Shown piece by piece: positions 18,831 through 41,007 of a stretch of DNA of 64,000 nt. The notes under the pieces were generated by a model, which was not told where the DNA came from, did not search any database, and worked only from the letters and a program-made list of their open reading frames with translations. The translations under genes were made by a program, and so were the position numbers. This DNA comes from a virus: IMG/VR virus record IMGVR_UViG_3300004097_000003, positions 1-64,000 of that record; one strand, written 5' to 3'. Each line of letters starts with the position of its first letter. Within the stretch, counting starts at the first letter, position 1.

Positions 18831-20291
18831 ATGGCAAACAAACCTTTAAGTAAAGTAACTGTTAATTTTGAGGAATCTGTAGCCGAGCTTCTGTCAAAGT
18901 TTTCAGATAGCCTACCTTGGGCGAACAAACTAAAGTCTAACGTAGGTACCGTTCTAACAGATATGATTGCAGGTACTGCTACTAATAACCAATTCTATAT
19001 AGAGTTTGCCGCGCGTGAGGCCTTCCTTAAGACAGCAAAGCGGTATAGCTCAGTGTATGCGTTAACACGTAGCCTAGGTGTACGTATAGTAAGACGTACT
19101 AGTGCAAAGACTACCGTTTCTGTTCAGAACACAAGTACATCCCAAATATTCATTCCAGCCTATGATAGCTTTGAGCTTGAGGGCCGTCCGTTCTACAATA
19201 GAGAAGGTTTAATGTTTGAGCCTGCTGAGGTAAAACAGTTTGTTTTATTTGAAGGTATCATACAACGCAAAGAACTGAAATTATCGGAACTAGCTACCAA
19301 CTCTTTAGAAATAATAGTAGGGGAGCCTGGTTTTGTTATTAGTGATGACGATGTTAGGGTATTTACCACGGACCCTACAGGAACTATGACTGAATGGACT
19401 AGACACGATGGCTCCCTTTTTGAACTTAATTCGGAAGATACTAAATTCTTCGATGCCACAACCGGAGACGGCGACGTTTCTTTACTTTTTGGTGATGGTA
19501 CTTTTGGCTCTGTTCCTGGATCAGATAGTACACTTACTATCGTATATGCCATAACTAGTGGGACTGATGGCAACCAAGGCCTATCAGGACTTAAAGTTAA
19601 CTACGCTAAGAACGATTTAATAACAGGTCAAAACATTGAGTCTATATTTGGAGGCACTGGTATTAAAGATAAGGTTTACTATAAAAAGTATGCGCCTTTC
19701 ATGTACAATAGTAAGAAACGTATGGTTAGCCCCAGTGACTGGCATGGTAATATAGGCCTATATCCAGGAGTGGGTGATTTAAGTATCCTCAGCCAACGAG
19801 ACATTGCACCTAATGACCCATCATGGCAGAACGTGGTTCGCGTATGTATATTGCCCGAAAACGGAAGCTCGTGGGGTGGTCAGAATCCAAGTCCTGAATC
19901 GGCAGTGTGGACTGAATTCCTCAAGTGGGCTAAGAAACGCGTACGACCTAACACTACTATTCAGCCGTGGAATCCAAGTAAAATTCTTACAGACATAGTA
20001 GTCGAAGTAGCGGTATTCGAGGAGGTAGACACACAGTTGATGAAGGATTTATTAACCACAGTTATCAGCGGAATGTTCACGCATACTCCGGGCACTTTAG
20101 GTAAAGCTTTTACCCGTAGTGACTTAGATGAAGCCATAAAATACGACGATGATCAGCGTAGAGACGGCATAGATTACGTTAAGATAGTCAGTCCTATTGA
20201 AGATATTGAACCTAGTACAAGGCTAGAGTTTGTTAGTCCTAAAAGCATAACCGTTCTGGTACGTTATACAGAACGTGAATCATTCCTATAA
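18831..20291 (+). CDS. gp6/J-like baseplate wedge protein
   Basis: Baseplate wedge protein of the T4 gp6 / P2 J / Mu gp47 family, which forms the ring around the hub. The N-terminal helical part (KLKSNVGTVLTDMIAG), the central Ig/beta region with FGDGTFG (residues about 220-228) and DGNQG, and the C-terminal VNPWNPS-like segment (RPNTTIQPWNPSK) match the family. Length 486 aa is as expected. Sits between gp25-like and a large tail-tip protein. Confidence 0.9.
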   Translation: MANKPLSKVTVNFEESVAELLSKFSDSLPWANKLKSNVGTVLTDMIAGTATNNQFYIEFAAREAFLKTAKRYSSVYALTRSLGVRIVRRTSAKTTVSVQNTSTSQIFIPAYDSFELEGRPFYNREGLMFEPAEVKQFVLFEGIIQRKELKLSELATNSLEIIVGEPGFVISDDDVRVFTTDPTGTMTEWTRHDGSLFELNSEDTKFFDATTGDGDVSLLFGDGTFGSVPGSDSTLTIVYAITSGTDGNQGLSGLKVNYAKNDLITGQNIESIFGGTGIKDKVYYKKYAPFMYNSKKRMVSPSDWHGNIGLYPGVGDLSILSQRDIAPNDPSWQNVVRVCILPENGSSWGGQNPSPESAVWTEFLKWAKKRVRPNTTIQPWNPSKILTDIVVEVAVFEEVDTQLMKDLLTTVISGMFTHTPGTLGKAFTRSDLDEAIKYDDDQRRDGIDYVKIVSPIEDIEPSTRLEFVSPKSITVLVRYTERESFL

Positions 20292-25030: not shown

Positions 25031-27385
25031 ATGCCTGATATTATTAGCCTCGCAGATAAGCTGCGAATGACTACAGCAGGTAAGCAGTCTGCACTTAACG
25101 CTGACCAAGGTGGAGTTTGGGTAGTACCTAAGTCTTTCGCTGTTGGTACCTTTACTGGAAGTGTTCCAAGTACCGTGCCTGATGATCTGCTTACAAGTCC
25201 CCTATATGGGGGCAATATACATTACGCTGAGGTAGTCAGTGAGCAATCCGTCCGTTTCACATTTGATATACCTACATCTGTAGGCACGGAAGCAGGGATA
25301 CCAATCGGTGAGGTAGTTATATATCTAGATGATGGCACAGCATTCGCACACGCAGTACTAGCGGAACCTTACGTAAAGCGTAAGGGAATAGGTGTTCGCA
25401 TAGAAGCTATGCTGCATATATTAGAAGCACCTGCCGCAGTTATTAATGTTACATTAAGCGAATTAGGAAGTATTCCTAGCGTTGCCAATGTGGAAGCATT
25501 ACCTAGCCCTGTAACATCACTATCAAATGCTATTAGCGTCCTAGACTTAGTACAGAATGTAGATGGTTCTACTAGCCCGGGCGTTGTATGTAAGTATGGT
25601 AACGGAGGCCAACATTGGGGCTTCTATGGATATAGCCGTATATTCAGTGAGGCTTTAGGTATAGGTAATGCAGTATCTCCTGCTGAACTTAATCAGTCAA
25701 CTGCTATAACTGAATTTGAATTACAAAATGGTGACGAGTTTATTATCCAAGTAATATCGGGTAATGGTGCAGGCGAAACCCGACTATTCAAACTGAATGG
25801 AAGTGACGAAAACGCCAGCTTCGTAGCAGTAGGTTCCGCATTTACGGCCTTGAGTGATAATTCAGTTGTTAGTATATGGGCTCCAATTGGAGCTAGTGGT
25901 TCATCAGGATGTGCTTGGCCCCCACAAGCCGACGGAGTACCTACAGACTGGGTACTTACTAAGGGTGAAGATAGTTGTCCTGTATGGTCGCCTCCTTATA
26001 AAAACAAAGCACAATCAATTACCCTGTACCGGGAGCCTAGCAAGTTAGAGCTAAAGCCTTTTAATACCATGGCTACTTCTGACCGTATGACTTATGATAT
26101 AGGAGATGTGTTCCCCGAGAACAATAACTTTGCCTTAGTTAATACTCAGGGTATAAATCAACATCGTAATGCTTTTGATGTAGTTGAAAACCGTATTGAG
26201 TTTAGTCAACGCCTAGTTAACCAGATCATTCTTGACATACGTACGTTCACAAGAGCACCAAGCTCAGGTACTAAGTTAATATGGCATACTGGTGAGCATA
26301 CTGGTAATGGTAGTACTCAAGAGTTTGATATGCCTAGCTATATCGACAGTCCTGAGTTAGCAATTATTACCGTCGACCATGCGCAGCAAGCCCTTACCTC
26401 CTATACTTTAGATAAAGATAGAAGTAAGATTATCTTTACCGAAGCGCCACCTGCAGGTTCTGTTATTCAGATTAGAACAGTTGAGTATATACAGGAGGAA
26501 GGCTTTAGTACTGATATCGTTAGTGTGTCTATGAAGACTTCTGATCTTACAAACGTAATACTTCTTCCTATATCACCTGAGTCTAAAGACCAAGTATTCG
26601 TCAGTGAGCAGGGCTTCTGGGTACACGCCTCTAGTTATGAAGTAGTAGACAATCGTGTTATCTTCAATGGTTCAATTGAGCCAGAGACAAGCATGGAAGT
26701 TTTAGTATTCCAGAATATACGTGCCGAAGGTGTTGCTAGTGCTGACGTTAAAGGAATGGTAGTAGGTGCTGTAGCTACGGCTAAAGGTATTGAATTAATA
26801 CGACATAATGCACCTAGTATAAAGTTACCTGCACCTGAATTCACTATCAAATCAGGCAGTGGTACCCGTGTGACAGGTCAGTACCCTGAATTCCTTATTG
26901 AAAGTACATTGGCTGAACAGATAGCAAAAGATAGCTTCAATAGTTTTAACGTCCAAGCTAAAGAAGAAGATGCCGAGCAAATTCTTATTACACAACGTAT
27001 TGAATTTAAAGGGGATATAATAGTACAAGCTAACGCGGACTTAATGGCTGAGCTTGGACCTGGTTTCATATCAGAAAGCGGATATGAGCGTGGTCAATTC
27101 GTACTAGGTGTAAGAACTACAGGTACAGTAGAGCCTGAGTATGGCCGCGGTATTAAAGGTACTGGTGAGTTTGGCATTAAAGCTGTTAGTGAGACACAAG
27201 CACAAGCATCAGGCTATGGTAATGCCAGTGTTACGCAATCGTGGAACATAATTAAAGCCAATCATCCTGCAGGCTATATAGACATTGTTGCTAAGATGCG
27301 TATATCTGACGCAAACATCAGTAAGTACGGAAGTAAACTTACAGCACTTTTAAACATAGTAGTGCTTCCTCAATTAGGTTCTTAG
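25031..27385 (+). CDS. Tail fibre protein, 784 aa
   Basis: Predicted tail fibre. The N-terminal 130 residues resemble phage tail-collar fibre N-termini (GIPIGEVVIYLDDGTAFA...), a family that attaches the fibre to the baseplate. Residues 290-330 hold a CAWPPQADG..W..CPVWSPPYKN segment. The rest is beta-rich, with regions that could be trimeric fibre repeats, and a C-terminal segment (YGRGIKGTGEFGI) rich in Gly. Starts after a good GGAA site. Receptor not predictable. Confidence 0.72.
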   Translation: MPDIISLADKLRMTTAGKQSALNADQGGVWVVPKSFAVGTFTGSVPSTVPDDLLTSPLYGGNIHYAEVVSEQSVRFTFDIPTSVGTEAGIPIGEVVIYLDDGTAFAHAVLAEPYVKRKGIGVRIEAMLHILEAPAAVINVTLSELGSIPSVANVEALPSPVTSLSNAISVLDLVQNVDGSTSPGVVCKYGNGGQHWGFYGYSRIFSEALGIGNAVSPAELNQSTAITEFELQNGDEFIIQVISGNGAGETRLFKLNGSDENASFVAVGSAFTALSDNSVVSIWAPIGASGSSGCAWPPQADGVPTDWVLTKGEDSCPVWSPPYKNKAQSITLYREPSKLELKPFNTMATSDRMTYDIGDVFPENNNFALVNTQGINQHRNAFDVVENRIEFSQRLVNQIILDIRTFTRAPSSGTKLIWHTGEHTGNGSTQEFDMPSYIDSPELAIITVDHAQQALTSYTLDKDRSKIIFTEAPPAGSVIQIRTVEYIQEEGFSTDIVSVSMKTSDLTNVILLPISPESKDQVFVSEQGFWVHASSYEVVDNRVIFNGSIEPETSMEVLVFQNIRAEGVASADVKGMVVGAVATAKGIELIRHNAPSIKLPAPEFTIKSGSGTRVTGQYPEFLIESTLAEQIAKDSFNSFNVQAKEEDAEQILITQRIEFKGDIIVQANADLMAELGPGFISESGYERGQFVLGVRTTGTVEPEYGRGIKGTGEFGIKAVSETQAQASGYGNASVTQSWNIIKANHPAGYIDIVAKMRISDANISKYGSKLTALLNIVVLPQLGS

Positions 27386-27386
27386 T

Positions 27387-29555
27387 ATGATTAATGAAAT
27401 TCGTTTAAGGACGTTTACTTCGCAGGTTGGAGAGGATAATGAAGTTCTCTCCAGAGACCCGAAGCAGAACGCTATAGAATACGAAGGAGATACAGGTCCC
27501 AATACTAGATTAGTTGAGGATGTCGCCTTCAATAAAAAACTAGGTGTACTAACATTCATTAGAAACAACGGTGAAGTCATTGAAGCAAGCGGGTTCTTAA
27601 CAGAGGATCAGATAGGGCACGGCCCTAAAGGTAAGGTAGGTAGAATAGGTAAAGCAGGTCGTGATGGTGAAGAAGGCCGACTAGGTAAAGAAGGACCTGC
27701 TGGATGTGAAGGTGCGCAAGGTAATGCGGGCGATAAAGGGATGTCAGGTAGAGATGGTGAGGATGGTCCTGTAGGTATAGCAGGTACTTCTGGATGTGAA
27801 GGAGATGTAGGCCCTGAGGGTGACGAAGGGGATAAAGGTCCTAAAGGATTCCAAGGATCGATGGGTAAAGACGGGTTAGACTGTATCATAGGCTGTCCTG
27901 GACCTAAAGGGGAACAAGGTTTAGGTACTTTTGTAGTACAAAAGGAAACACCTACTGAGGAGCACGTATACTTATGGGGCGTTCCTTTTGAGAGCGTTTT
28001 ACCTGAGTTACCCAAAAAGCCTGATGATATGTCAGCTTCAATCAATTCTATAGTAGTTACTATGACTAAGGATAGAGGTACTACTTATACTGCTTCAGGC
28101 TCTTTAATAGTGAGCGACTTTAAAGGTGGTGTAGGACCTTTCTCTATCATTTGGACAGGTGACTATAAAGCTAAGTTAGGTATAACTAAGGATAGTATAA
28201 GTAACGACAGCCTAAGATTATCACTTGATGCCTCCGCTGAAATAGAACCAGGTGAGGTTGCTGAGATTGCTGGCGATGCCGTTGTTACCATAACGGATAC
28301 GTCAAATGGTAAACAGCTAGTTTTACCTACTACGTATGAATTTAAAGGGAGCAACAGTACGGTAGTTGCTCCTCCCATATACGGTAACGTACGTGATGCA
28401 GCCGTTGTTGAAGGTGATGACTTAAAGTTCTTAGTAACTACTACGAGTCCTTTACTCTCATCAGTACGAATCACATATACGCTAAAGTCAGGAACAGCAG
28501 GAACCTCCGACTACAAGGATTTGGGTCAAGGTTACATGGACTTAAGCATAGGCGTGGACCAGTTCTACGTTAATGTAGAAGCAATACGCGATTCTATACC
28601 TAACGAAGATGTGGAAACAATGTCGGTTACTGTTAGTATTCCTGGCGTATCTGAATTAAATGCAGGTGATATGACAGCAATAGGTACTATTACTGAGGCT
28701 GATAGCCATATAGTACCTATTGTCCTAGGGCCTGCAGTGGTGACGGAGGGAAGTACTGCAAAAATAACCATCAGGCTAGGTGGTTCTTACATAGAAGGTG
28801 TCACCGGCGGCTACGCAGTTAAGTATAGAACATTATCGGATACAGCGGGTACGTCGGACTACGTAGCTCGGTCTGGGACTCTAACTTTCACCTATAGTTG
28901 GGAAGAGAAAGTCATTGAAATAGCAACAATAGATGATTCTATTGTTGAAGCCACTGAGCAGTTTTATTTTGAGTTGTACGATGCAGGTGCACATCTTGAC
29001 TTAGGTGGAGATACTAAAAAAGTTACGGTTACAGTTAATGACAATGACGAAACTTATAGGGGTTCTACCGGCGGTGGGTGTATAGGATGGGGTGCGAAAG
29101 TTGAAACGCCTGAAGGTACTACATCTATAGAGACTGTATTGATAGGTGATACTATCCTAGGATACGCTGAGCCTAGTATGTCAACAAGTGCTAATTCAAA
29201 CGATCCAGAAGTATTAAACTGGCACGCCCTTGAGTTAAGAGGCAAACGTGCTTGGGTTATGGTTACAAATGCTAGGCATGATACATACCCTCAATACAAA
29301 GTTATCAACGATCTTAACTTAACTTTCGATCATCCTGTCATGACTAAGCGTGATGGCGTATGGCAGTGGCTACCTGCCCTGCAAGTTATAGTTAGTGATA
29401 TTGTCCTAGGCACTGATAGTCAAGAAGTCCCAGTTACAATAGCTACAGAAGTATACAAAGAACTTAAAGTAGTAGAGCTTGACGTTGAGCCTCACGATGT
29501 CTATTATGTTAACGACATACTAGTCCACAATGTGAATAAAATTGTACATAAGTAA
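27387..29555 (+). CDS. Collagen-like adhesin with Calx-beta and Hint domains
   Basis: 722-residue protein. Residues 1-75 are an N-terminal module shared with four paralogs (GVLTFIRNNGEVIEASGFLT..IGHGPKG). About 29 Gly-X-Y triplets follow, with Cys in GCE/GCP positions that could staple a trimer. Then beta domains: two Calx-beta-like segments (EGDDLKFLVTT..., TEGSTAKITIRLGG..TFTYSWEEKVIEI..DDSIVEATEQFYF) end at about residue 560. The last 158 residues are a Hint domain: Cys565 (CIGWGAKVETPEG), LTFDHPVM (block B-like His), and VHN (Asn715) then a 7-residue tail. See findings: the residue after Asn is Val, so cleavage rather than splicing is likely. Confidence 0.78.
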   Translation: MINEIRLRTFTSQVGEDNEVLSRDPKQNAIEYEGDTGPNTRLVEDVAFNKKLGVLTFIRNNGEVIEASGFLTEDQIGHGPKGKVGRIGKAGRDGEEGRLGKEGPAGCEGAQGNAGDKGMSGRDGEDGPVGIAGTSGCEGDVGPEGDEGDKGPKGFQGSMGKDGLDCIIGCPGPKGEQGLGTFVVQKETPTEEHVYLWGVPFESVLPELPKKPDDMSASINSIVVTMTKDRGTTYTASGSLIVSDFKGGVGPFSIIWTGDYKAKLGITKDSISNDSLRLSLDASAEIEPGEVAEIAGDAVVTITDTSNGKQLVLPTTYEFKGSNSTVVAPPIYGNVRDAAVVEGDDLKFLVTTTSPLLSSVRITYTLKSGTAGTSDYKDLGQGYMDLSIGVDQFYVNVEAIRDSIPNEDVETMSVTVSIPGVSELNAGDMTAIGTITEADSHIVPIVLGPAVVTEGSTAKITIRLGGSYIEGVTGGYAVKYRTLSDTAGTSDYVARSGTLTFTYSWEEKVIEIATIDDSIVEATEQFYFELYDAGAHLDLGGDTKKVTVTVNDNDETYRGSTGGGCIGWGAKVETPEGTTSIETVLIGDTILGYAEPSMSTSANSNDPEVLNWHALELRGKRAWVMVTNARHDTYPQYKVINDLNLTFDHPVMTKRDGVWQWLPALQVIVSDIVLGTDSQEVPVTIATEVYKELKVVELDVEPHDVYYVNDILVHNVNKIVHK

Positions 29556-29565
29556 GGAGAATTAA

Positions 29566-30198
29566 ATGTTAACTAGACCTCCTATGGAATCAGTTAATGC
29601 TAACGGTACTGCCAGTCAGACTGACGTTATAGTTAAAGACGGGAAGTTAGCTGCGGGTAACAAAGAAGATAGTCAAACCGCTGAGGTACAAGATATATTC
29701 TTCGATTCTACTGTCGGTATTCTCGTCATAGAGTTTACTAATGGTGAGACTAAGCGTGTATCTGGGTTCCCTACGTTCGGAACTATACCGGATGGTCCTG
29801 CAGGTCCTACAGGCGACCCTGGTGAAGACGGAAAAGAGGGACGTGACGGACGTGACGGTGAAACAGGAGCACCTGGATGCTTCGGGCCTATTGGACCTAA
29901 AGGAGTAGAGGGTGATCCCGGACGCAATGGCGAAGATGGAGCACCCGGAGCACCTGGACCTAAAGGCTGTCCTGGTCCAGCAGGTAATAAGGGACCTAAA
30001 GGGGAACCTGGAGATGTGGGGGAACCTGGAGTACAAGGACCTCCAGGTGATACAGGTCCTCAAGGCCCTGAGGGTGAGCGTGGTCCAGCAGGTAAAATCA
30101 ACTATATCATAAGTACATCAGACCCAGGAACTAGCGCAGGTGCTGGCAGTATATGGATTAATCCTAACATTACAGAAACCAGCCCGGCTTGGCCGTAG
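29566..30198 (+). CDS. Collagen-like tail fibre protein
   Basis: Paralog of the other collagen-like genes. Starts MLTRPP; a 75-residue N-terminal beta module ([17 protein letters not shown]) precedes about 33 uninterrupted Gly-X-Y triplets (residues about 78-177), including GCF and GCP. The end ([21 protein letters not shown]) matches the C-terminal module of the neighbours. Probably a homotrimeric triple-helical stalk on the virion. AGGAG precedes the ATG. Confidence 0.82.
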
Positions 30199-30206
30199 GA
30201 GTTAGT

Positions 30207-31274
30207 ATGAGTGACGTTAAAACCAATATGCTAGATATCGGACATATTAGCGGTGACTTACGAGTCCAAGATGGAACGCTTAAAATTGTCCCTGATTCTA
30301 TGACGCCTAATGGCAATGTTACAGGATATATTGATAAAACAGGAGTCTTGACTATTGACATACCTGGCCACGGTACTATACAAGCAAACGGATTCCTAAC
30401 GCGTGCTGATATCGGTCAGGGGCATGAAGGCAATAGGGGAAATGAAGGCAGTAATGGAACTGACGGATCGATAGGATTAGATGGCTCCAAAGGTGTTATA
30501 GGTGATAGGGGAGAAGTAGGTAGTAGAGGCGTACCTGGAGTAAGAGGACCCAGAGGCATGCAAGGCAGTTTTGGCCAAAATGGCAATAGTGGTGCGGAGG
30601 GAGTTAAAGGAGATGACGCCTTTGTTAATATGTTTATACAGGAGTCAGACCCAGGGGCTCCAGGCGCAGGCGCAGTATGGGTTAAACCTATATACACCCA
30701 CCTGCAAGAAGCCATTGCTGATATACAAGCCAATTGTAGTAGTGATGAAGATGAAGATACAGAGGAATTACCAGTCATTGAAGGTGATTCGGAATCACAT
30801 CCTTATACAAGTGATGGACATGCTACAGGTAGCTTAGTCGTTTACTTCGATACAAGTACGTACACCACTTTAGAAGACAGCGGTAAGGAATTCATACGTG
30901 TAGAAGAAGAAGAAAGATTCATACTAATACTTAGACTACTTTCGCCGTTACCTATTGATGCTGTATTCCAAGTGAAACTTAGAGAGGACCCTACTAATAT
31001 TGCATGGGCGGGATTCAAATGGGATTCAGATGACGCTAAGGGTACTGTAGAAAGAACACTTACAATACCAGCAGGTAAGTTAGTCTCTGATGAACTTACC
31101 GCTTACGTTCCTGAGGATTGGGTAATCGCAAGCGATAGCGGTTATGGCGAACTTGCAATTTCGTCCGATTCAGGTAACAATCAAATAATGATTGACGAAA
31201 GTACGTACCAATTTGTCAGTGATTCCCCCAAATTGAACTATATTAAGATGCGAGTCTATCCTAAGATTTCGTAG
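30207..31274 (+). CDS. Collagen-like protein with Calx-beta-like C-terminus
   Basis: Paralog with the shared N-terminal module (VLTIDIPGHGTIQANGFLTRADIG) and about 22 Gly-X-Y triplets lacking Cys, followed by the DPGAPGAGAVWVKP module. Then an acidic linker (SSDEDEDTEELP) and a C-terminal beta domain of roughly 130 residues with a Calx-beta-like pattern (RVEEEERFILILRLLSPLP, TLTIPAGKLVSDELT). Start at 30207 because TAGGAG lies just before it, rather than the upstream in-frame start that overlaps the previous gene. Confidence 0.78.
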   Translation: MSDVKTNMLDIGHISGDLRVQDGTLKIVPDSMTPNGNVTGYIDKTGVLTIDIPGHGTIQANGFLTRADIGQGHEGNRGNEGSNGTDGSIGLDGSKGVIGDRGEVGSRGVPGVRGPRGMQGSFGQNGNSGAEGVKGDDAFVNMFIQESDPGAPGAGAVWVKPIYTHLQEAIADIQANCSSDEDEDTEELPVIEGDSESHPYTSDGHATGSLVVYFDTSTYTTLEDSGKEFIRVEEEERFILILRLLSPLPIDAVFQVKLREDPTNIAWAGFKWDSDDAKGTVERTLTIPAGKLVSDELTAYVPEDWVIASDSGYGELAISSDSGNNQIMIDESTYQFVSDSPKLNYIKMRVYPKIS

Positions 31275-31307
31275 TATTACATAATTTTCTAAACACGTGA
31301 GGTGCTT

Positions 31308-31799
31308 ATGTTAACAAGACCACCACTAAATGCAATTGATGCTGGAGCCGAAAGCGGTGACGTAACTTCAAATGCACTTAATCTACAAGTAGAATCTATT
31401 GACGATAGTATAGCGACTGAGCTTGGTGCTAAATACGATTCAGTCAATGGCTCTCTAGTTATATCATTCCCAGGATACCCACACCTTAGGATAAACGGCT
31501 TCATGACGCCTATTCATATTAAAGAAGGCAGACAAGGTAAACCTGGGTATGAAGGCAGAGAAGGAATCGAAGGCACTATAGGATCTGACGGAGAGCAAGG
31601 CCAGCAAGGATGTTTAGGCCCAGAGGGTCCTCAGGGACGTCCAGGTCAACGTGGACCTAGAGGTCAGATGGGTTCTCAAGGTGAGATTGGTCCTACGGGT
31701 CCTGATGGGGCTAAAGGAGAGCCTGGAGAATTTCTAGTCTATATACAGAACGACGAACCCGTAGGGGTGGAGCACGGTGCGCTGTGGGTGAAACAATAA
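31308..31799 (+). CDS. Collagen-like tail fibre protein
   Basis: Shortest of the collagen set (163 aa). Starts MLTRPPLN, the same opening as the gene at 29566; N-terminal module (LVISFPGYPHLRINGFMT) then about 22 Gly-X-Y triplets with one GCL, and a short end (VYIQNDEPVGVEHGALWVKQ) matching the family. ATG 31308 follows GAGG by 5 bases and is preferred to the GTG at 31302. Confidence 0.8.
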   Translation: MLTRPPLNAIDAGAESGDVTSNALNLQVESIDDSIATELGAKYDSVNGSLVISFPGYPHLRINGFMTPIHIKEGRQGKPGYEGREGIEGTIGSDGEQGQQGCLGPEGPQGRPGQRGPRGQMGSQGEIGPTGPDGAKGEPGEFLVYIQNDEPVGVEHGALWVKQ

Positions 31800-31811: not shown

Positions 31812-34469
31812 ATGGCACTTAACTTAGAACTATCAAGTTCGAATGAAAAGTCAGTACTATACGATGGTGAGTACGGAGATTTAGACTACATAGAAAGCTC
31901 CTTAACTTTATATTTTAGTGTAGAAGGAACTAGCTCGTATTCTGTTACGATTATCGATGCGGATACAGGAAACGACCAGACGTCTATCGTACAAGTCGGT
32001 CAGGGAACACTAACCATAGACCTTCGTATTCTAAAAAGTTATTTCACAATAGGTACTACCGTATTCGGTGGTACTGTTGTGTTACAGATAGACGATAATG
32101 ATAGTACTGATACTGGTCAGTTTAACATCGACTTCCATTTCGCCGTTACAAATAACGCAGTATACGTGGCTCCAGTGACATTCGGCCTCAGTACAAACGG
32201 TATTGCCATTAGTACTGAGTTACAGCGCAGTAGTGGTATTGATTTCGTTGAGCGCGCCGCGTATCCTACGGTAGAAGTACTTGGAGGCTCAGGTCCTTTC
32301 GAGTACACTTGGGTTCCTGCAAACTTTGAACACTTCTTAATAGAATCAGTAGAAGGTCTTGATACAGACAAACCTACCGTAAACTATAAACTCGATGTTG
32401 CGTCGGACCTACCTGAAGAACTATTTAATTCCGATGGAGGCAAGTGGACTCAGACAGGTATATTTAACGTAAGCGTTCGAGATACCAGTAACGGTGATAT
32501 CTCGTTAGGAGAAGTATCCTGGAGCTTCACTGTTAGTGTACAGGAGGAGGAAAGAGGCGACTCGGTAGTTAAAGAAAGCAGAATCATACCAGGACGATTT
32601 AGAGTACGAAACCCTCTCAATAGCTTCTGGTATGACTTATGTTATTATGAAATGTACGTCTTTGATAAAGATTACCTACAGTGGATTAGACTATTCCCTA
32701 ATAAGGTGTTTGTGCGCGATGGAGGCAGCAGTGATTGGATTGAAATAGGTTGCATTACTGATACTTCCTATGACGACCCTTGTGCAGGCTTCGGGTCAGG
32801 TACCGATTGTTCAGGTGAACCTCAAGATCCTCTTGCGGGATCTGGTGATGGATTTGGTTCTAATGGTCCTTCATACGATGTCGATACAGGATATCCTGCA
32901 GGCTTTGATATGCCTGACAGCTCACTCGGTGGCTACGGTATTAAGATTGCACCTAAAGCCACTGGTTACGATACTCCGGTAGGTTACATAATGCAGCGTC
33001 CCGGACTACAGTCGGAAGAATCTTATGATCCTACAGGTCTATCTGCCGATGAAGGCGCTCACGGTAAGTATAATAGTCCTAACTTAAATGGAGCCAGCAC
33101 TTGGGGTAGAGGTGCAGCGGTTACTGAGACTATATATGAATTACCTGCACAGAATGGTTATTACGAACTTCTCTATGCTGCTTACGATTCCGTTAGTATC
33201 GATGTTTACTACGTAGGTCAGCGAGTAGCTACAACATGTGGACCTGTGCCTAAGTTGACGCGAGGTCTATTGACGTTTAATGTTAACATAGCGACAGGTC
33301 TAGGTGAAAGACGTATCATGATTAGGGTACGTGGTGCCGAGGATGTTAGATGGGCTTACCAAGTAGTAGGTCCTAAAGCTTCACCTGTGCTACAAGATTT
33401 CGATAACCAAGACGATGATGATTACGCAAATATCAATGAGTTTCTTTACGAAGAATCTGAAATGATGCAAACCCAGTACATAGGTACGCCTATGTTTCCT
33501 GCACCCTGTCACGGCACTGTAGGTAATGTAGATCAGACGTTTCCTTGGGCATTATCTGATAGAATTGAGACGCAAAACTGGTTTGAGTACTATCACTATG
33601 TCGGCGAAAACGGGGGTCCAATGGTGCTCGATTTTAGCTCATGGGCAGCCGCTGACTACGTTGAAATCTGGCAAAATGGGGTTCGGATAGCTACATCTCA
33701 AGATTATAACCAAACTCCAGGCTATGTTGATTTTATATATGAAGCCCGTGAAGGCGTTCAAGATATAATGGTTAGAGTGCATACAGAATCAAAAGGTATG
33801 GGTCAAGATTTAAGTACTTGGTACTATACACTATTCTGCCCTAACGCAATTGGCCACAGAAGACAACCATGGCCTTGTGGGCCTGACGTTATATACAGCA
33901 TGGGACATCCTGCCACAGAGGATAACTTTGATATAGATAACGGCGTCGAGCGTGGTGCCTTTAAAGTATACATGCGAGAGTGTACGGCTACTACATTAGT
34001 TAGAGTATTCAATAGAGACGGAGACTTGATAACGTCGATGACGGGCGAAGGTGACTTCGATGTAGAGGCTTTCAATTTCGATGTGGTTACAGGAGAAGTA
34101 CATAAGGATATATATGTACGTGTTGAGACTTCTATAGGGCATGGTTGGCAATACACCGTAAGTTGTCCAGTACCTTTACTTGATATAATACTAAAACCTG
34201 TAGACCCAAGTGTAGAGTGGTCTATAACCGATGAAATTATACAGGACGATTCTGAGTATGTCGAACTTATCGTAAGCATAAACAAAGCCCAATTGGTTGA
34301 TAGGTCTATTGATTGGGCTACTAGCAACGACACTGCGTATGACCTAACGGACTACTGTGCTGCTAACGGAACTGTGACAATACCTGCTGGACAGACTAGT
34401 ATTAAGATTCAAATTAATTTAGCTCCTTGTGATGCTGAGGATGAGGATGAGGATGCACCTAGCACCTGA
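31812..34469 (+). CDS. Large structural protein with repeated beta-sandwich domains
   Basis: 885-residue protein, not matched to a named family. It contains at least three domains of about 85 residues with the shared pattern ...V.I(Y/W)..G.RI..S...G...F......(I/V)M.RV......W.Y.V.(C)P, seen around residues 445-520, 580-675 and 700-790; a Calx-beta-like segment ends the protein (SIDWATSNDTAYD...GTVTIPAGQTSIKI). Tail is acidic (DAEDEDEDAPST). Likely a tail-fibre or whisker protein. Cys pairs (CGP, CPN, SCP) recur at domain ends. Confidence 0.75.
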   Translation: MALNLELSSSNEKSVLYDGEYGDLDYIESSLTLYFSVEGTSSYSVTIIDADTGNDQTSIVQVGQGTLTIDLRILKSYFTIGTTVFGGTVVLQIDDNDSTDTGQFNIDFHFAVTNNAVYVAPVTFGLSTNGIAISTELQRSSGIDFVERAAYPTVEVLGGSGPFEYTWVPANFEHFLIESVEGLDTDKPTVNYKLDVASDLPEELFNSDGGKWTQTGIFNVSVRDTSNGDISLGEVSWSFTVSVQEEERGDSVVKESRIIPGRFRVRNPLNSFWYDLCYYEMYVFDKDYLQWIRLFPNKVFVRDGGSSDWIEIGCITDTSYDDPCAGFGSGTDCSGEPQDPLAGSGDGFGSNGPSYDVDTGYPAGFDMPDSSLGGYGIKIAPKATGYDTPVGYIMQRPGLQSEESYDPTGLSADEGAHGKYNSPNLNGASTWGRGAAVTETIYELPAQNGYYELLYAAYDSVSIDVYYVGQRVATTCGPVPKLTRGLLTFNVNIATGLGERRIMIRVRGAEDVRWAYQVVGPKASPVLQDFDNQDDDDYANINEFLYEESEMMQTQYIGTPMFPAPCHGTVGNVDQTFPWALSDRIETQNWFEYYHYVGENGGPMVLDFSSWAAADYVEIWQNGVRIATSQDYNQTPGYVDFIYEAREGVQDIMVRVHTESKGMGQDLSTWYYTLFCPNAIGHRRQPWPCGPDVIYSMGHPATEDNFDIDNGVERGAFKVYMRECTATTLVRVFNRDGDLITSMTGEGDFDVEAFNFDVVTGEVHKDIYVRVETSIGHGWQYTVSCPVPLLDIILKPVDPSVEWSITDEIIQDDSEYVELIVSINKAQLVDRSIDWATSNDTAYDLTDYCAANGTVTIPAGQTSIKIQINLAPCDAEDEDEDAPST

Positions 34470-34625
34470 TACTTTCCTAGCTACTATACGTAAAGCTTTT
34501 GAATCTGTAATACCATTTATGTGATTTGATAACCATACAGTCATAAAGTATTAGGGAGTAAGGAGTTAGTAGACCTTGCAGGTAAGTCAGGTAAATGGTG
34601 GCAAGTACTTAATTAAGGAATTATA
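34470..34625. other. Longest intergenic gap
   Basis: A 156-base gap between two structural genes, the longest in the window. It has a purine-rich stretch (GGGAGTAAGGAGT) about 60 bases before the next start and AAGGAA just before the ATG at 34626. I see no convincing open frame, hairpin terminator or promoter; it may hold a processing site or weak promoter. Confidence 0.4.
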
Positions 34626-36419
34626 ATGGCAAAACGATTTCATGTTGACTTAGCGAATCCTAGTTTCGGAGTCATAGAAAAAGGTAAAGGAATTGTAACG
34701 ATTCTGGAGGTAGCTGAACCTTTACCTCCAGAGCGGCCTGAACCCGAACTAGTAAATGAATACATCTGGGAATGTATATTTGAAAACTTAGATGGTGATG
34801 AGGTGAAGTCTGTACCTCATAATAGCGAAGAAGGCTACGAGTATATGATAGCCCATATAGATCTAGAAGGTGATAACGAGATTACTTGGAGCCACGTAGC
34901 TAGATTTATAGGGGACAATCCCACAGGTACACCTATGGCGCAGAATATAGATAGTGGTGTAGGCGTGAGTGACAATTTTGGTATATTTATAGATACGTCC
35001 AACGGTAGTTCTATAATAATTAAAATTATGCGTAGACCTCTACCTGTAGCTGCCGACGAAGACAGCAGAGTAACAGGAAATGAGTTCGTCCGTGTTAGCG
35101 GAAATGACTTAAGCTACCAGTGGGATTTAAACTACGAATACTACATAACCTGTACTTATGGCACACTATCTAACTATACAGGAACTATAATTACCGATGA
35201 AGTATCCTACGGCTATTCGAGCATAGATAAATCAACTGCTTGGATAGCAAACATCGATCAGGATAGGAAGAAGTGGGTAGGGTTTGGACATAAATCATCA
35301 GAGCCTGGTAATAAATCTTATCGTACAGTAGTTACAAAGAGATGTGACTTACACAGCGTATGGCGCAGGCCTTGGTCGGCATCTAGCCTTCCAGCTAGTG
35401 AGTTTGCCAATGAGCATAAACGTGTTAAGAATAACATGGATAGTCCTTCTACTACTTTAACGTTCGACTGGAAAGATAACAAAGAATACCTCGTCATGAT
35501 GGCGGATACTTCTTCTGACAACGAGGTAGCTTGCGCTAAAGTGTATACTACTCCTGGTCTGTTAGAAGTACCAGGCGTAACTAGACATAAATCAGGTATT
35601 GCTGCACCTGGTGGTAACCCATCATGGATAGAATTCCTACAGACCAGCGTAGGCGGTAGTAAAAAGATAGAGGCGCACCACGGATATATATTAAATATAC
35701 TCGAAAGAGATATGTTCTATGACCCTGGGACGTGCGGCGCTGAAGGTTTCGTAGGTCCTGTTAGCTCTATTTCATCTTTAGCTAGTATTAACACAATAGG
35801 TAAAATCGCGTTTATGTCTGACACCCCAGGTATTACAAAATACGGGGCTTCGGCTACAGACGGTTCAGCTTTGGAAGTTGAGGCTTATATAGGGGACTGG
35901 ACAGGCAATGTACCCGATGTATACAATGATAAGTATACTAGCGATATTCAAGGTATAGCGATACCTTATAGTTACGGTGGGGGTATCGCTAGTAACATGA
36001 CGCCTTCCGATCCGTATCTAGCCGAGTCAAAATCTACGGCTTGGAGAGGCTGGTACCTATCCGTCATAGACGAAACTGAACACACTTCTGGTATTAAGTA
36101 CAGTAAGATAACGAGTATCGATATTAACAAGTACGTAGATGGCCACACTTTAGTAATAAGGTGTGAGGACTCTGCTGATGGTGATTATACGCTTGAGAGT
36201 AATTCCTCGATAGTGGACAACAACACAGGACGCTCCGTTAGCCTTAGTGATATCTACGGAATCAGAACTAAAGCATTACACATAGGATTTCAAGATACCT
36301 TAGCAAGAAATCAGTCAGGAATGGATGCTGAGGTTACTATTGCTATTGAATTTGAATTTCATGATGGTACGATGTTTTCACATACATTGACTCTTGCCGC
36401 TAATAGTGAAATATATTAA
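34626..36419 (+). CDS. Structural protein, 597 aa
   Basis: Not recognised as a named family. Large beta-rich protein with Gly- and Tyr-rich strands, a Pro-rich linker (EPLPPERPEPE at residues about 30-40), and no signal peptide. Position between collagen-like and adhesin genes suggests a virion surface protein. AAGGAA precedes the ATG. Confidence 0.74.
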   Translation: MAKRFHVDLANPSFGVIEKGKGIVTILEVAEPLPPERPEPELVNEYIWECIFENLDGDEVKSVPHNSEEGYEYMIAHIDLEGDNEITWSHVARFIGDNPTGTPMAQNIDSGVGVSDNFGIFIDTSNGSSIIIKIMRRPLPVAADEDSRVTGNEFVRVSGNDLSYQWDLNYEYYITCTYGTLSNYTGTIITDEVSYGYSSIDKSTAWIANIDQDRKKWVGFGHKSSEPGNKSYRTVVTKRCDLHSVWRRPWSASSLPASEFANEHKRVKNNMDSPSTTLTFDWKDNKEYLVMMADTSSDNEVACAKVYTTPGLLEVPGVTRHKSGIAAPGGNPSWIEFLQTSVGGSKKIEAHHGYILNILERDMFYDPGTCGAEGFVGPVSSISSLASINTIGKIAFMSDTPGITKYGASATDGSALEVEAYIGDWTGNVPDVYNDKYTSDIQGIAIPYSYGGGIASNMTPSDPYLAESKSTAWRGWYLSVIDETEHTSGIKYSKITSIDINKYVDGHTLVIRCEDSADGDYTLESNSSIVDNNTGRSVSLSDIYGIRTKALHIGFQDTLARNQSGMDAEVTIAIEFEFHDGTMFSHTLTLAANSEIY

Positions 36420-40245: not shown

Positions 40246-41007
40246 ATGTTAACTAAACCGAAGATTAGTATGATAGCTCCAAGTCAGAACTCTGCTGATA
40301 ATGATGTAGTGAAGACGGCTGGAGGTAAGTTAAAGTCGGAGCAGAATGTAGTACCTATAGGGGACGCCGCAGTTAAGAGTGGCCGATATGATACTACGAC
40401 AGGCACTTTGATGATAACGTTAGGTGATGACAGTACTTTAGTCGTGGAGGGTTTTCCTACTGACCAGAGTATAGGAACTGGCCCTAAAGGTGATAGAGGT
40501 GCTGTAGGAAAAGGAGGCCGTCCTGGCAAGAACGGCAAAGATGGATTAGATGGCCCTCAAGGATGTCCAGGGTCTAAAGGAGATAAAGGTGAAATCGGTC
40601 CTACAGGGCCAGAAGGCCCTATGGGTATAACGGGTGAGCAAGGTATTCAAGGTATTCAGGGCCAGCAAGGTGACAGGGGACCTAAAGGAGAACCTGGGCA
40701 AGAACCTATTTACGTATACAGTGAAGCAGGTAGTGAAGAACGAACAGTACAATATGGCCGTGTCATGCTGTGGGGTCACTATCAGTCGGACGGTAGCGTT
40801 AACACTGCTGATGTTAGGTATCCTCAGGCTACAACTAGACTTACACAAACTGTAGTAGCCTTCTTCGCTAATCCTCAATCCGTTCAAGCTCAAAACTATG
40901 AGATTGAAGCGCAGACGAAAGAAGGGTTTGCTCTACGCGTACCATCATCATTTGCCTTACCCCTTGATGACGATTGGGACTTCCAATGGATAGCACTAGG
41001 AGATTAA
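40246..41007 (+). CDS. Collagen-like tail fibre protein with C-terminal domain
   Basis: Fifth member of the collagen-like family, located 8 kb downstream of the others. Starts MLTKPK, shares the N-terminal module (TLMITLGDDSTLVVEGFPT..IGTGPKG) and has about 25 Gly-X-Y triplets, including GCP. The 85-residue end (IYVYSEAGSEERTVQYGRVMLWGHYQ...) is a beta domain not seen in the others. Followed directly by the fibre-assembly-like gene. Confidence 0.82.
   Translation: MLTKPKISMIAPSQNSADNDVVKTAGGKLKSEQNVVPIGDAAVKSGRYDTTTGTLMITLGDDSTLVVEGFPTDQSIGTGPKGDRGAVGKGGRPGKNGKDGLDGPQGCPGSKGDKGEIGPTGPEGPMGITGEQGIQGIQGQQGDRGPKGEPGQEPIYVYSEAGSEERTVQYGRVMLWGHYQSDGSVNTADVRYPQATTRLTQTVVAFFANPQSVQAQNYEIEAQTKEGFALRVPSSFALPLDDDWDFQWIALGD

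Follow-up and report, generated by a model that had tools for sequence, protein, structure and literature searches.

The window analysed here is a stretch of 64,000 nucleotides, positions 1 to 64,000 of the virus record IMGVR_UViG_3300004097_000003, which comprises 82,973 bases; over the 11,501 bases compared, its sequence does not differ from that of a sister record, G001, with 261,788 bases. An open reading frame of 722 residues is present at 27387..29555 on the plus strand, as an earlier note on this DNA had stated, and according to the reading frame, Pfam and its orthologs it encodes a Hint-bearing, collagen-like tail-fibre protein, hereafter chain A. It is preceded on the same strand by a conserved gene (25031..27385, PHROGs family phrog_21488) that served as the phage marker for tree building, and further upstream by a baseplate-wedge gene (18831-20291). 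Three more collagen-like genes, recognised by Pfam and triplet counts, follow on the plus strand: chain B (29566..30198, 34 triplets), an extra paralog (30189..31274, 22 triplets) and chain C (31302..31799, 23 triplets). The fifth collagen-like gene of the record is located at 40246-41007. The sequence GGAG that follows the stop codon of chain A (29556..29559, plus strand) was identified by eye as the likely ribosome-binding site of the next gene. With 29 Gly-X-Y triplets and a baseplate gene upstream, chain A corresponds to a collagen-like phage tail fibre, understood as a Gly-X-Y run within a tail-gene cluster; the adhesin role that the earlier note assigned to it is putative. The order A - B - C is kept in 9/9 regions of Hint-bearing phages that were opened; NCTB has an extra open reading frame between chains A and B, and in Afa-NA1 the large gene upstream of chain A carries no annotation.

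Chain A contains the parts that the earlier note had described, i.e. an N-terminal module, about 29 triplets and two Calx-beta-like domains, and all of them are encoded on the plus strand. The N-terminal module (residues 1-78, 27387..27620) matches phrog_38766 and phrog_8745, and from about residue 37 it also matches other collagen-like proteins of the record. The collagen run begins at residue 79 and has exactly 29 uninterrupted triplets (residues 79-165, 27621..27881; Pfam Collagen above cut-off, E 3.4e-14). Next come a domain of about 120 residues that alignment shows to be common to the phage orthologs (28011..28391), whose model is poor (pLDDT 46.8), and two Calx-beta domains (28395..29048), detected by Pfam above cut-off in two stretches (E 1.7e-13); the start of the first was placed by eye, the second covers residues 472-554, and both are absent from the nine orthologs aligned. 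According to the alignment, Gly564, which immediately precedes the predicted cut, is the last residue of a linker (29049..29078). The Hint domain, assigned as type A BIL-like by profile, model and fold searches, covers residues 565-715 (29079..29531) and includes Cys565 (29079..29081), which from alignments and superposition is the predicted nucleophile of an N-S acyl shift, the block B motif TFDH, located by alignment (residues 646-649, 29322..29333), and His714-Asn715 (29526..29531), the predicted site of Asn cyclisation. The protein ends in a tail of seven residues, VNKIVHK (29532..29552); these residues lie where the earlier note had placed them.

At the loci compared, the collagen runs have unequal but invariant lengths: chain A has 29 triplets and chain B 34 in 34/34 loci, and chain C has 23 in 33/34, including the window, locus L001 not reaching the gene; several of these loci are copies of one phage. 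Such constancy suggests a molecular ruler and perhaps also a heterotrimer. A cysteine is found at offset 28 of the run in each chain, except in chain A of the Hint-less loci L017, L020, L101 and L102. Chains A and B of the window have a second collagen cysteine at offset 58, which is absent in the other 33 loci, as if both chains were in register and disulfide-linked. A link between the collagen cysteine and the Hint domain is not claimed because the Hint-less protein of HRDY3 has a cysteine in its tenth triplet (counted by eye).

Two other regions of the window were noted. The open reading frame 41527-42387 matches an HNH endonuclease family (phrog_24148, E 6.6e-30) and has stretches in common with families of tail and virion structural proteins. 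In addition, a Calx-beta domain appears by eye to be split between the reading frames 31812-34469 and 34626-36419, separated by 156 bases. The sister record is identical in this gap (34470-34625), the fold z-score of 0.26 indicates no unusual RNA fold there, and in the window no Rfam family reaches the gathering score, with three sub-threshold matches near the gap. Gene fission, an intron or bypass may account for this arrangement.

Identification of the Hint domain

Searches against Pfam with the whole of chain A gave no Hint match at E up to 1. When the Hint domain of the window was used alone, Pfam returned only Hint_2 at E 0.073, which is below the calling level, and NCBIfam only an unrelated enzyme model (E 0.086); in PHROGs it matched the unnamed-domain family phrog_38766 (E 5e-24). 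A single-sequence search of solved structures recovered partial intein matches only (best E 0.00098). A profile of 12 family members ranked 2lwy, which we take to be a type A BIL, as the best of 29 PDB sequences (E 2.1e-12), over almost its whole length. The domain of the window obtained 125.4 bits with a profile of 11 relatives that excluded it, and 2000 shuffles of its own residues obtained at most 11.3; with a profile built from six other phage proteins the values were 78.4 bits and at most 14.6. A chance match is excluded, given that the family profile scores the domain far above the 2000 shuffles.

Structure prediction, which the earlier note had named as a check, resulted in a confident Hint fold: the AlphaFold2 model of 168 residues has a pLDDT of 82.6 and a pTM of 0.78, with residues 1-7, 43-56 and 164-168 below 50, and it adopts the horseshoe, all-beta fold of the superfamily. 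The best PDB match of this model in Foldseek was again 2lwy (E 2.1e-8). In VIA-align, BIL2 (6y75) came first with Z 18.2, followed by 2lwy and the Npu DnaB intein at 17.6; given that rows within Z 1 of the top were regarded as ties, BIL2, 2lwy and several inteins are not separated by this comparison. Hedgehog gave Z 17.2 and 17.1. A total of 82 chains had Z of at least 8, and each of the 50 entries listed belongs to an intein, a BIL or Hedgehog.

Model residues 11 and 161, that is, C565 and N715, superpose on residues 1 and 440 of the splicing domain of the Mtu RecA intein, the latter being presumably its terminal Asn, and residue 11 also falls on Hedgehog residue 258. The Cys at position 1 and the TxxH of block B (T646-F-D-H649) that characterise the superfamily are present. 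The proposal of the earlier note that the C-terminal part is homologous to Hint domains was thus borne out by the family profile, Foldseek and VIA-align, and the placement of Cys565 and Asn715 at active-site positions agrees with their register with the ends of the Mtu RecA intein. These results confirm that chain A ends in a real Hint domain that is catalytically complete as judged by its residues.

The phage Hint family and its Hint-less relatives

Using the Hint domain as a tblastn query, 57 of 50,697 phage records were matched (counts include duplicate GenBank/RefSeq entries), in 54 cases with a query coverage of 80% or more: 48 from Erwinia phages, two from Dickeya phages, and one each from NCTB, Yersinia phage fHe-Yen9-02, Afa-NA1 and Sen-NF. 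The other three, two in Vibrio and one in Campylobacter records, are weak matches (E 0.01-0.09) to regions annotated as helicase, NTPase or polymerase. A second query, the Hint of locus L058, matched 55 of the 50,697 records, in the same named groups and one uncultured record, and a search of the plasmid collection gave one match, to Calx-beta. We observed that Alcaligenes phage Afa-NA1 (PV550095) and Salmonella phage Sen-NF (PV359490) show identical match figures at this locus, which is odd for such different hosts. NCTB carries three Hint domains, in BN7874_136, in BN7874_135 and in the 1304-residue BN7874_132. BN7874_135 (L007 10521-10982) is a free-standing Hint of 153 residues without TxxH that adjoins the Hint-bearing fibre gene. 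The annotation of an intein domain in phages is not new, since GenBank notes state that gp110 of phage Y3 'contains intein domain' and use 'intein domain' also in NCTB. The PaBG paper, in the part consulted, places these phages in a 'Lupandier group' and reports inteins in their terminases (PMC7412058).

Scans of viral contigs revealed further proteins with a Hint as their last domain; in many of these proteins it is preceded by low-complexity repeats, and some of them have PASTA, fn3, Flg_new or tail-tip matches. The viral fold library also includes other phage proteins with Hint-like folds, for instance A0A6J5QMR4, annotated 'Collagen triple helix repeat' (E 1.1e-4). The Hint domain is a member of a conserved phage family that ends the chain A orthologs and other phage proteins. 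In one contig (L094), the open reading frame 2-2011, two genes upstream of a Hint-bearing repeat protein, has no Hint and a poly-Gly end that resembles the predicted cleaved end of that protein. In fHe-Yen9-02, positions 199791-200108 (L048) encode an intein-like Hint with a long middle part; it is internal, the surrounding protein being by eye similar to a DNA cytosine methyltransferase, and differs in this respect from the terminal Hint.

Residue conservation was evaluated in 53 distinct copies with a profile E of at most 1e-8, including the window; they are not independent, given that 18 form a single clade of fHe-Yen9-02 and Erwinia-type phages. His-Asn, which was absent from every search pattern used to fetch the copies, is present in 53/53. 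Position 1 was assigned as Cys in 52/53, the remaining copy (L044) being cut off by the contig end, and this assignment is uncertain in NCTB 135, L095 and L098; TxxH occurs in 52/53, counting TYEH of L044, and is missing from NCTB 135. A glycine precedes Cys1 in 48/52 copies, a count inflated because one search pattern contains GGC, and in 27/29 of those that have an N side and were fetched without this pattern. The +1 residue is Thr in 18/53 (17 of them close Erwinia-type relatives), Ser in 3/53 and Cys in 0/53, and 3-21 residues follow the Asn in all 53 copies. Computation establishes the fold, the catalytic residues and the conservation of the latter. A shared fold does not by itself show function, so the domain could be folded but devoid of chemistry, acting as a structural cap or a receptor-binding tip, and the free-standing NCTB copy without TxxH is still kept as an open reading frame; nevertheless, copies with 22-35% identity to the window keep Cys1, TxxH and His-Asn together while +1 drifts, and we consider this explanation improbable.

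Selection was estimated from 18 related sequences (153 pairs), using pairs with dS 0.05-1.5. The median dN/dS of the Hint domain was 0.10 (36/153 pairs usable), and that of the two parts before it was 0.13 (88 pairs) and 0.09 (95 pairs); hence, the Hint is under purifying selection, like the parts that precede it. For the linker the median was 0.53 (97 pairs), although its nine codons are too short for precision, and for the tail 0.22 (123 pairs). Gly-1, Cys1, the His and the Asn are invariant in 18/18 related sequences, Gly-1 being the sole invariant residue between positions -7 and -1.

A search with the domain located before the Hint in Erwinia-type phages yielded 24 loci, leaving out row L123, which shows the upstream gene. 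Twenty of them end in a Hint and four (L099-L102) lack it; these four proteins end in ARNPK, and their identity to the query row, from Dickeya phage JA29, is 99-100% for L099/L100 and 80-81% for L101/L102. The Dickeya phages JA29 and JA13 have the same ending, and at E 0.01 the Hint profile matched nothing in the JA29 record. ARNP is common to most Hint-bearing orthologs, in which the G|C junction comes after six or seven more residues; the C terminus of the Hint-less protein thus lies five or six residues before the predicted cut. Judging from sequence, the ARNPK ending would be a natural near-copy of the predicted cleaved product, and these orthologs give an idea of the mature C terminus, in a natural experiment with n = 1, given that the Hint-less loci form one lineage. 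The neighbouring genes are the same in this lineage; it also lacks the collagen cysteine of chain A, and more than the Hint may have been lost.

In the tree of the upstream gene, which has several long branches and a midpoint root, the JA pair falls among Hint-bearing phages, with an order relative to fHe-Yen9-02 that is not settled; the window and NCTB, joined together (97/96), are the sister group, and Lu11 and HRDY3, which were not among the tblastn Hint matches in the 50,697 phage records, lie outside. The simplest reading of this topology would be one loss of the Hint in the JA lineage. The Hint tree, from an alignment of 164 columns and with long branches, groups the window with the Erwinia clade (96/79) and places NCTB elsewhere. 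This conflict makes an exchange of Hint domains, or a long-branch error, possible. Some exchange would be expected if the Hint were a stranded selfish mini-intein that lost its C-extein, and fHe-Yen9-02 does carry an intein-like insertion in another gene; both trees, however, contain long branches. This explanation seems very improbable: the Hint stays at the very end though the preceding domains change, it is likewise terminal in proteins that have PASTA, fn3, Flg_new or tail-tip matches, it is under purifying selection, its 151 residues leave no room for an endonuclease, and 0/53 copies have more than 21 residues after the Asn, that is, none has a long C-extein.

Predicted self-removal and comparison with known Hint systems

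In the Erwinia clade the tail, TDIVAKAEK, has Thr at +1 in 17/18 sequences and Asp at +2 in 18/18, and chain B starts overlapping or closely following the stop codon of chain A; the tail of the window is different. A peptide function for the AEK part was discarded: it is probably the ribosome-binding site of chain B because its codons are GCG-GAG-AAA/G in 18/18 rows, just before the next start codon. This argument leaves the conservation of Thr+1 and Asp+2 unaccounted for. It speaks for a Hint that splices, as does the presence of Thr at +1 in 18/53 copies; once the Asn has cyclised, the thioester would pass to the freed amine of the tail, or to Thr+1 in the Erwinia clade, and the short tail would become joined to the fibre. 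The portions consulted of the literature on type A BILs diverge on this point. One report describes a thioester at the first residue, cleavage of the C end by Asn cyclisation, and ligation through the freed amine with a dispensable +1 nucleophile, with mostly cleavage products (PMC4031507); another describes splicing as possible and cleavage as frequent (PMC5874633), and a review states that these domains cannot ligate their flanks (PMC7765530). Outside the Erwinia clade +1 varies and the tails of 3-21 residues differ, the AEK part is probably a ribosome-binding site, and the Hint-less orthologs have no such tail. Splicing followed by joining of the tail thus appears quite improbable, and the earlier view that it is unlikely is strengthened by the finding that +1 is Ser or Thr in 21/53 copies and never Cys.

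Given the Val at +1, the variable tail and the naturally Hint-less relative, simple self-removal is the best reading: the domain is probably a type A BIL-like Hint, cutting the chain at G564|C565 and so freeing itself from the fibre. In the proposed mechanism, Cys565 would attack the carbonyl of Gly564 to form a thioester, Asn715 would cyclise and shed the tail of seven residues, and the thioester would be resolved by water or a small thiol; the Hint would then be released, and the mature fibre chain would consist of residues 1-564. We infer that cleavage occurs, that hydrolysis is its outcome and that it is timed during assembly. If the Hint were only shed, its persistence across genera would need some reason, which counts against self-removal; aid in folding, delay of assembly or anchoring may be such reasons. 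The conserved Thr+1 and Asp+2 of the Erwinia clade count against it as well.

In the main rival reading the Hint is a ligase, with the Gly564 thioester attacked by an amine to give a covalently cross-linked or anchored fibre. We regard this as rather unlikely; the amine could be, for example, that of a Lys in a different fibre chain or in the tail. BIL2 of Tetrahymena, which heads the VIA-align ranking at Z 18.2 with several inteins and 2lwy so close (within Z 1) that they count as ties, joins a ubiquitin-like domain to Lys through an isopeptide bond (PMC8616854). The Gly-Cys junction known from Hedgehog, present in 27 of the 29 copies fetched without the GGC pattern, also suits a ligase, but it is equally expected for plain cleavage. 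The acceptor residue and the partner are both hypothetical, and the Hint-less lineage keeps the same neighbouring genes. Sequence evidence favours neither hydrolysis nor aminolysis, while the Hint-less orthologs would tilt the balance between the two outcomes of the earlier note, release and cross-link, to release. It is doubtful, though conceivable, that phages turned an intein-type domain into an ATP-free ligase that, during assembly, covalently welds or anchors collagen-like fibres and, likewise, many other appendages.

Self-processing of phage fibres is known chiefly from C-terminal domains of another kind, namely intramolecular chaperones, e.g. peptidase S74. A conserved and catalytically complete Hint at the end of collagen-like and other appendage proteins would add a second chemistry by which virion fibres are matured, timed or anchored, and a self-cutting Hint is probably a little-noticed way of virus fibre maturation. 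Transfer of the thioester to an amine would, if it occurs, provide a natural tool for ligation that depends on neither ATP nor a +1 nucleophile. In the open-licence PMC literature, searched by titles and abstract starts, we found no paper describing Hint domains on phage fibres, nor did we find there the family, the Hint-less natural control or the recurrence on other phage appendages.

Among known systems, the Hints of Y3 gp110 and of NCTB BN7874_136, BN7874_135 and BN7874_132 belong to the same family, and Y3 gp110 and NCTB 136 are the same fibre gene; they exist as annotation alone, and neither mechanism nor family analysis was found in the papers searched. The mini-inteins gp41-1, Mtu RecA and Npu DnaB superpose in fold and active-site ends (Z 17.0-17.6); in contrast to them, chain A has no C-extein beyond seven residues, and a +1 Cys, Ser or Thr is not conserved. 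A class 1 splicing intein was discarded, as +1 is Val and the tail of seven residues provides no C-extein beginning with Cys, Ser or Thr, and so was insertion at a fixed site in a conserved host motif, because the Hint is terminal and comes after differing domains. With E allowed up to 10, the pretoxin model PT-HINT matches 10/12 family members (best 1.4e-5), the window not being among them, and a pretoxin Hint was also rejected, given that only seven residues and no toxin domain follow. The Hog-Hint of Hedgehog (1at0/6tyy) has in common the position C-terminal to the processed part, the Gly-Cys junction and the fold (Z 17.1-17.2); nonetheless, chain A ends seven residues after N715 and has no sterol-recognition region, and it keeps the His-Asn, which the Hog domain is not known to carry. 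Chain A therefore falls outside the definitions of class 1 inteins, Hedgehog and pretoxins because its architecture differs. BIL2 of Tetrahymena BUBL1 (6y75, 6tmm), which shares the top of the VIA-align ranking with several inteins, lies between two ubiquitin-like domains (PMC8616854), whereas the phage Hint is terminal and its acceptor hypothetical. The closest system is the type A BIL, e.g. 2lwy of C. thermocellum, an experimentally known BIL that is also the best profile match. The two have in common the fold, Cys1, TxxH, His-Asn at the C-terminal end and a dispensable +1 nucleophile, often absent in BILs and replaced by Val in the window. The sequence and fold features tested are those of a type A BIL-like Hint, for which self-cleavage is predicted, and it differs from these BILs in that it is encoded by phages and closes collagen-like and other fibre-like proteins, with no more than 3-21 residues after it.
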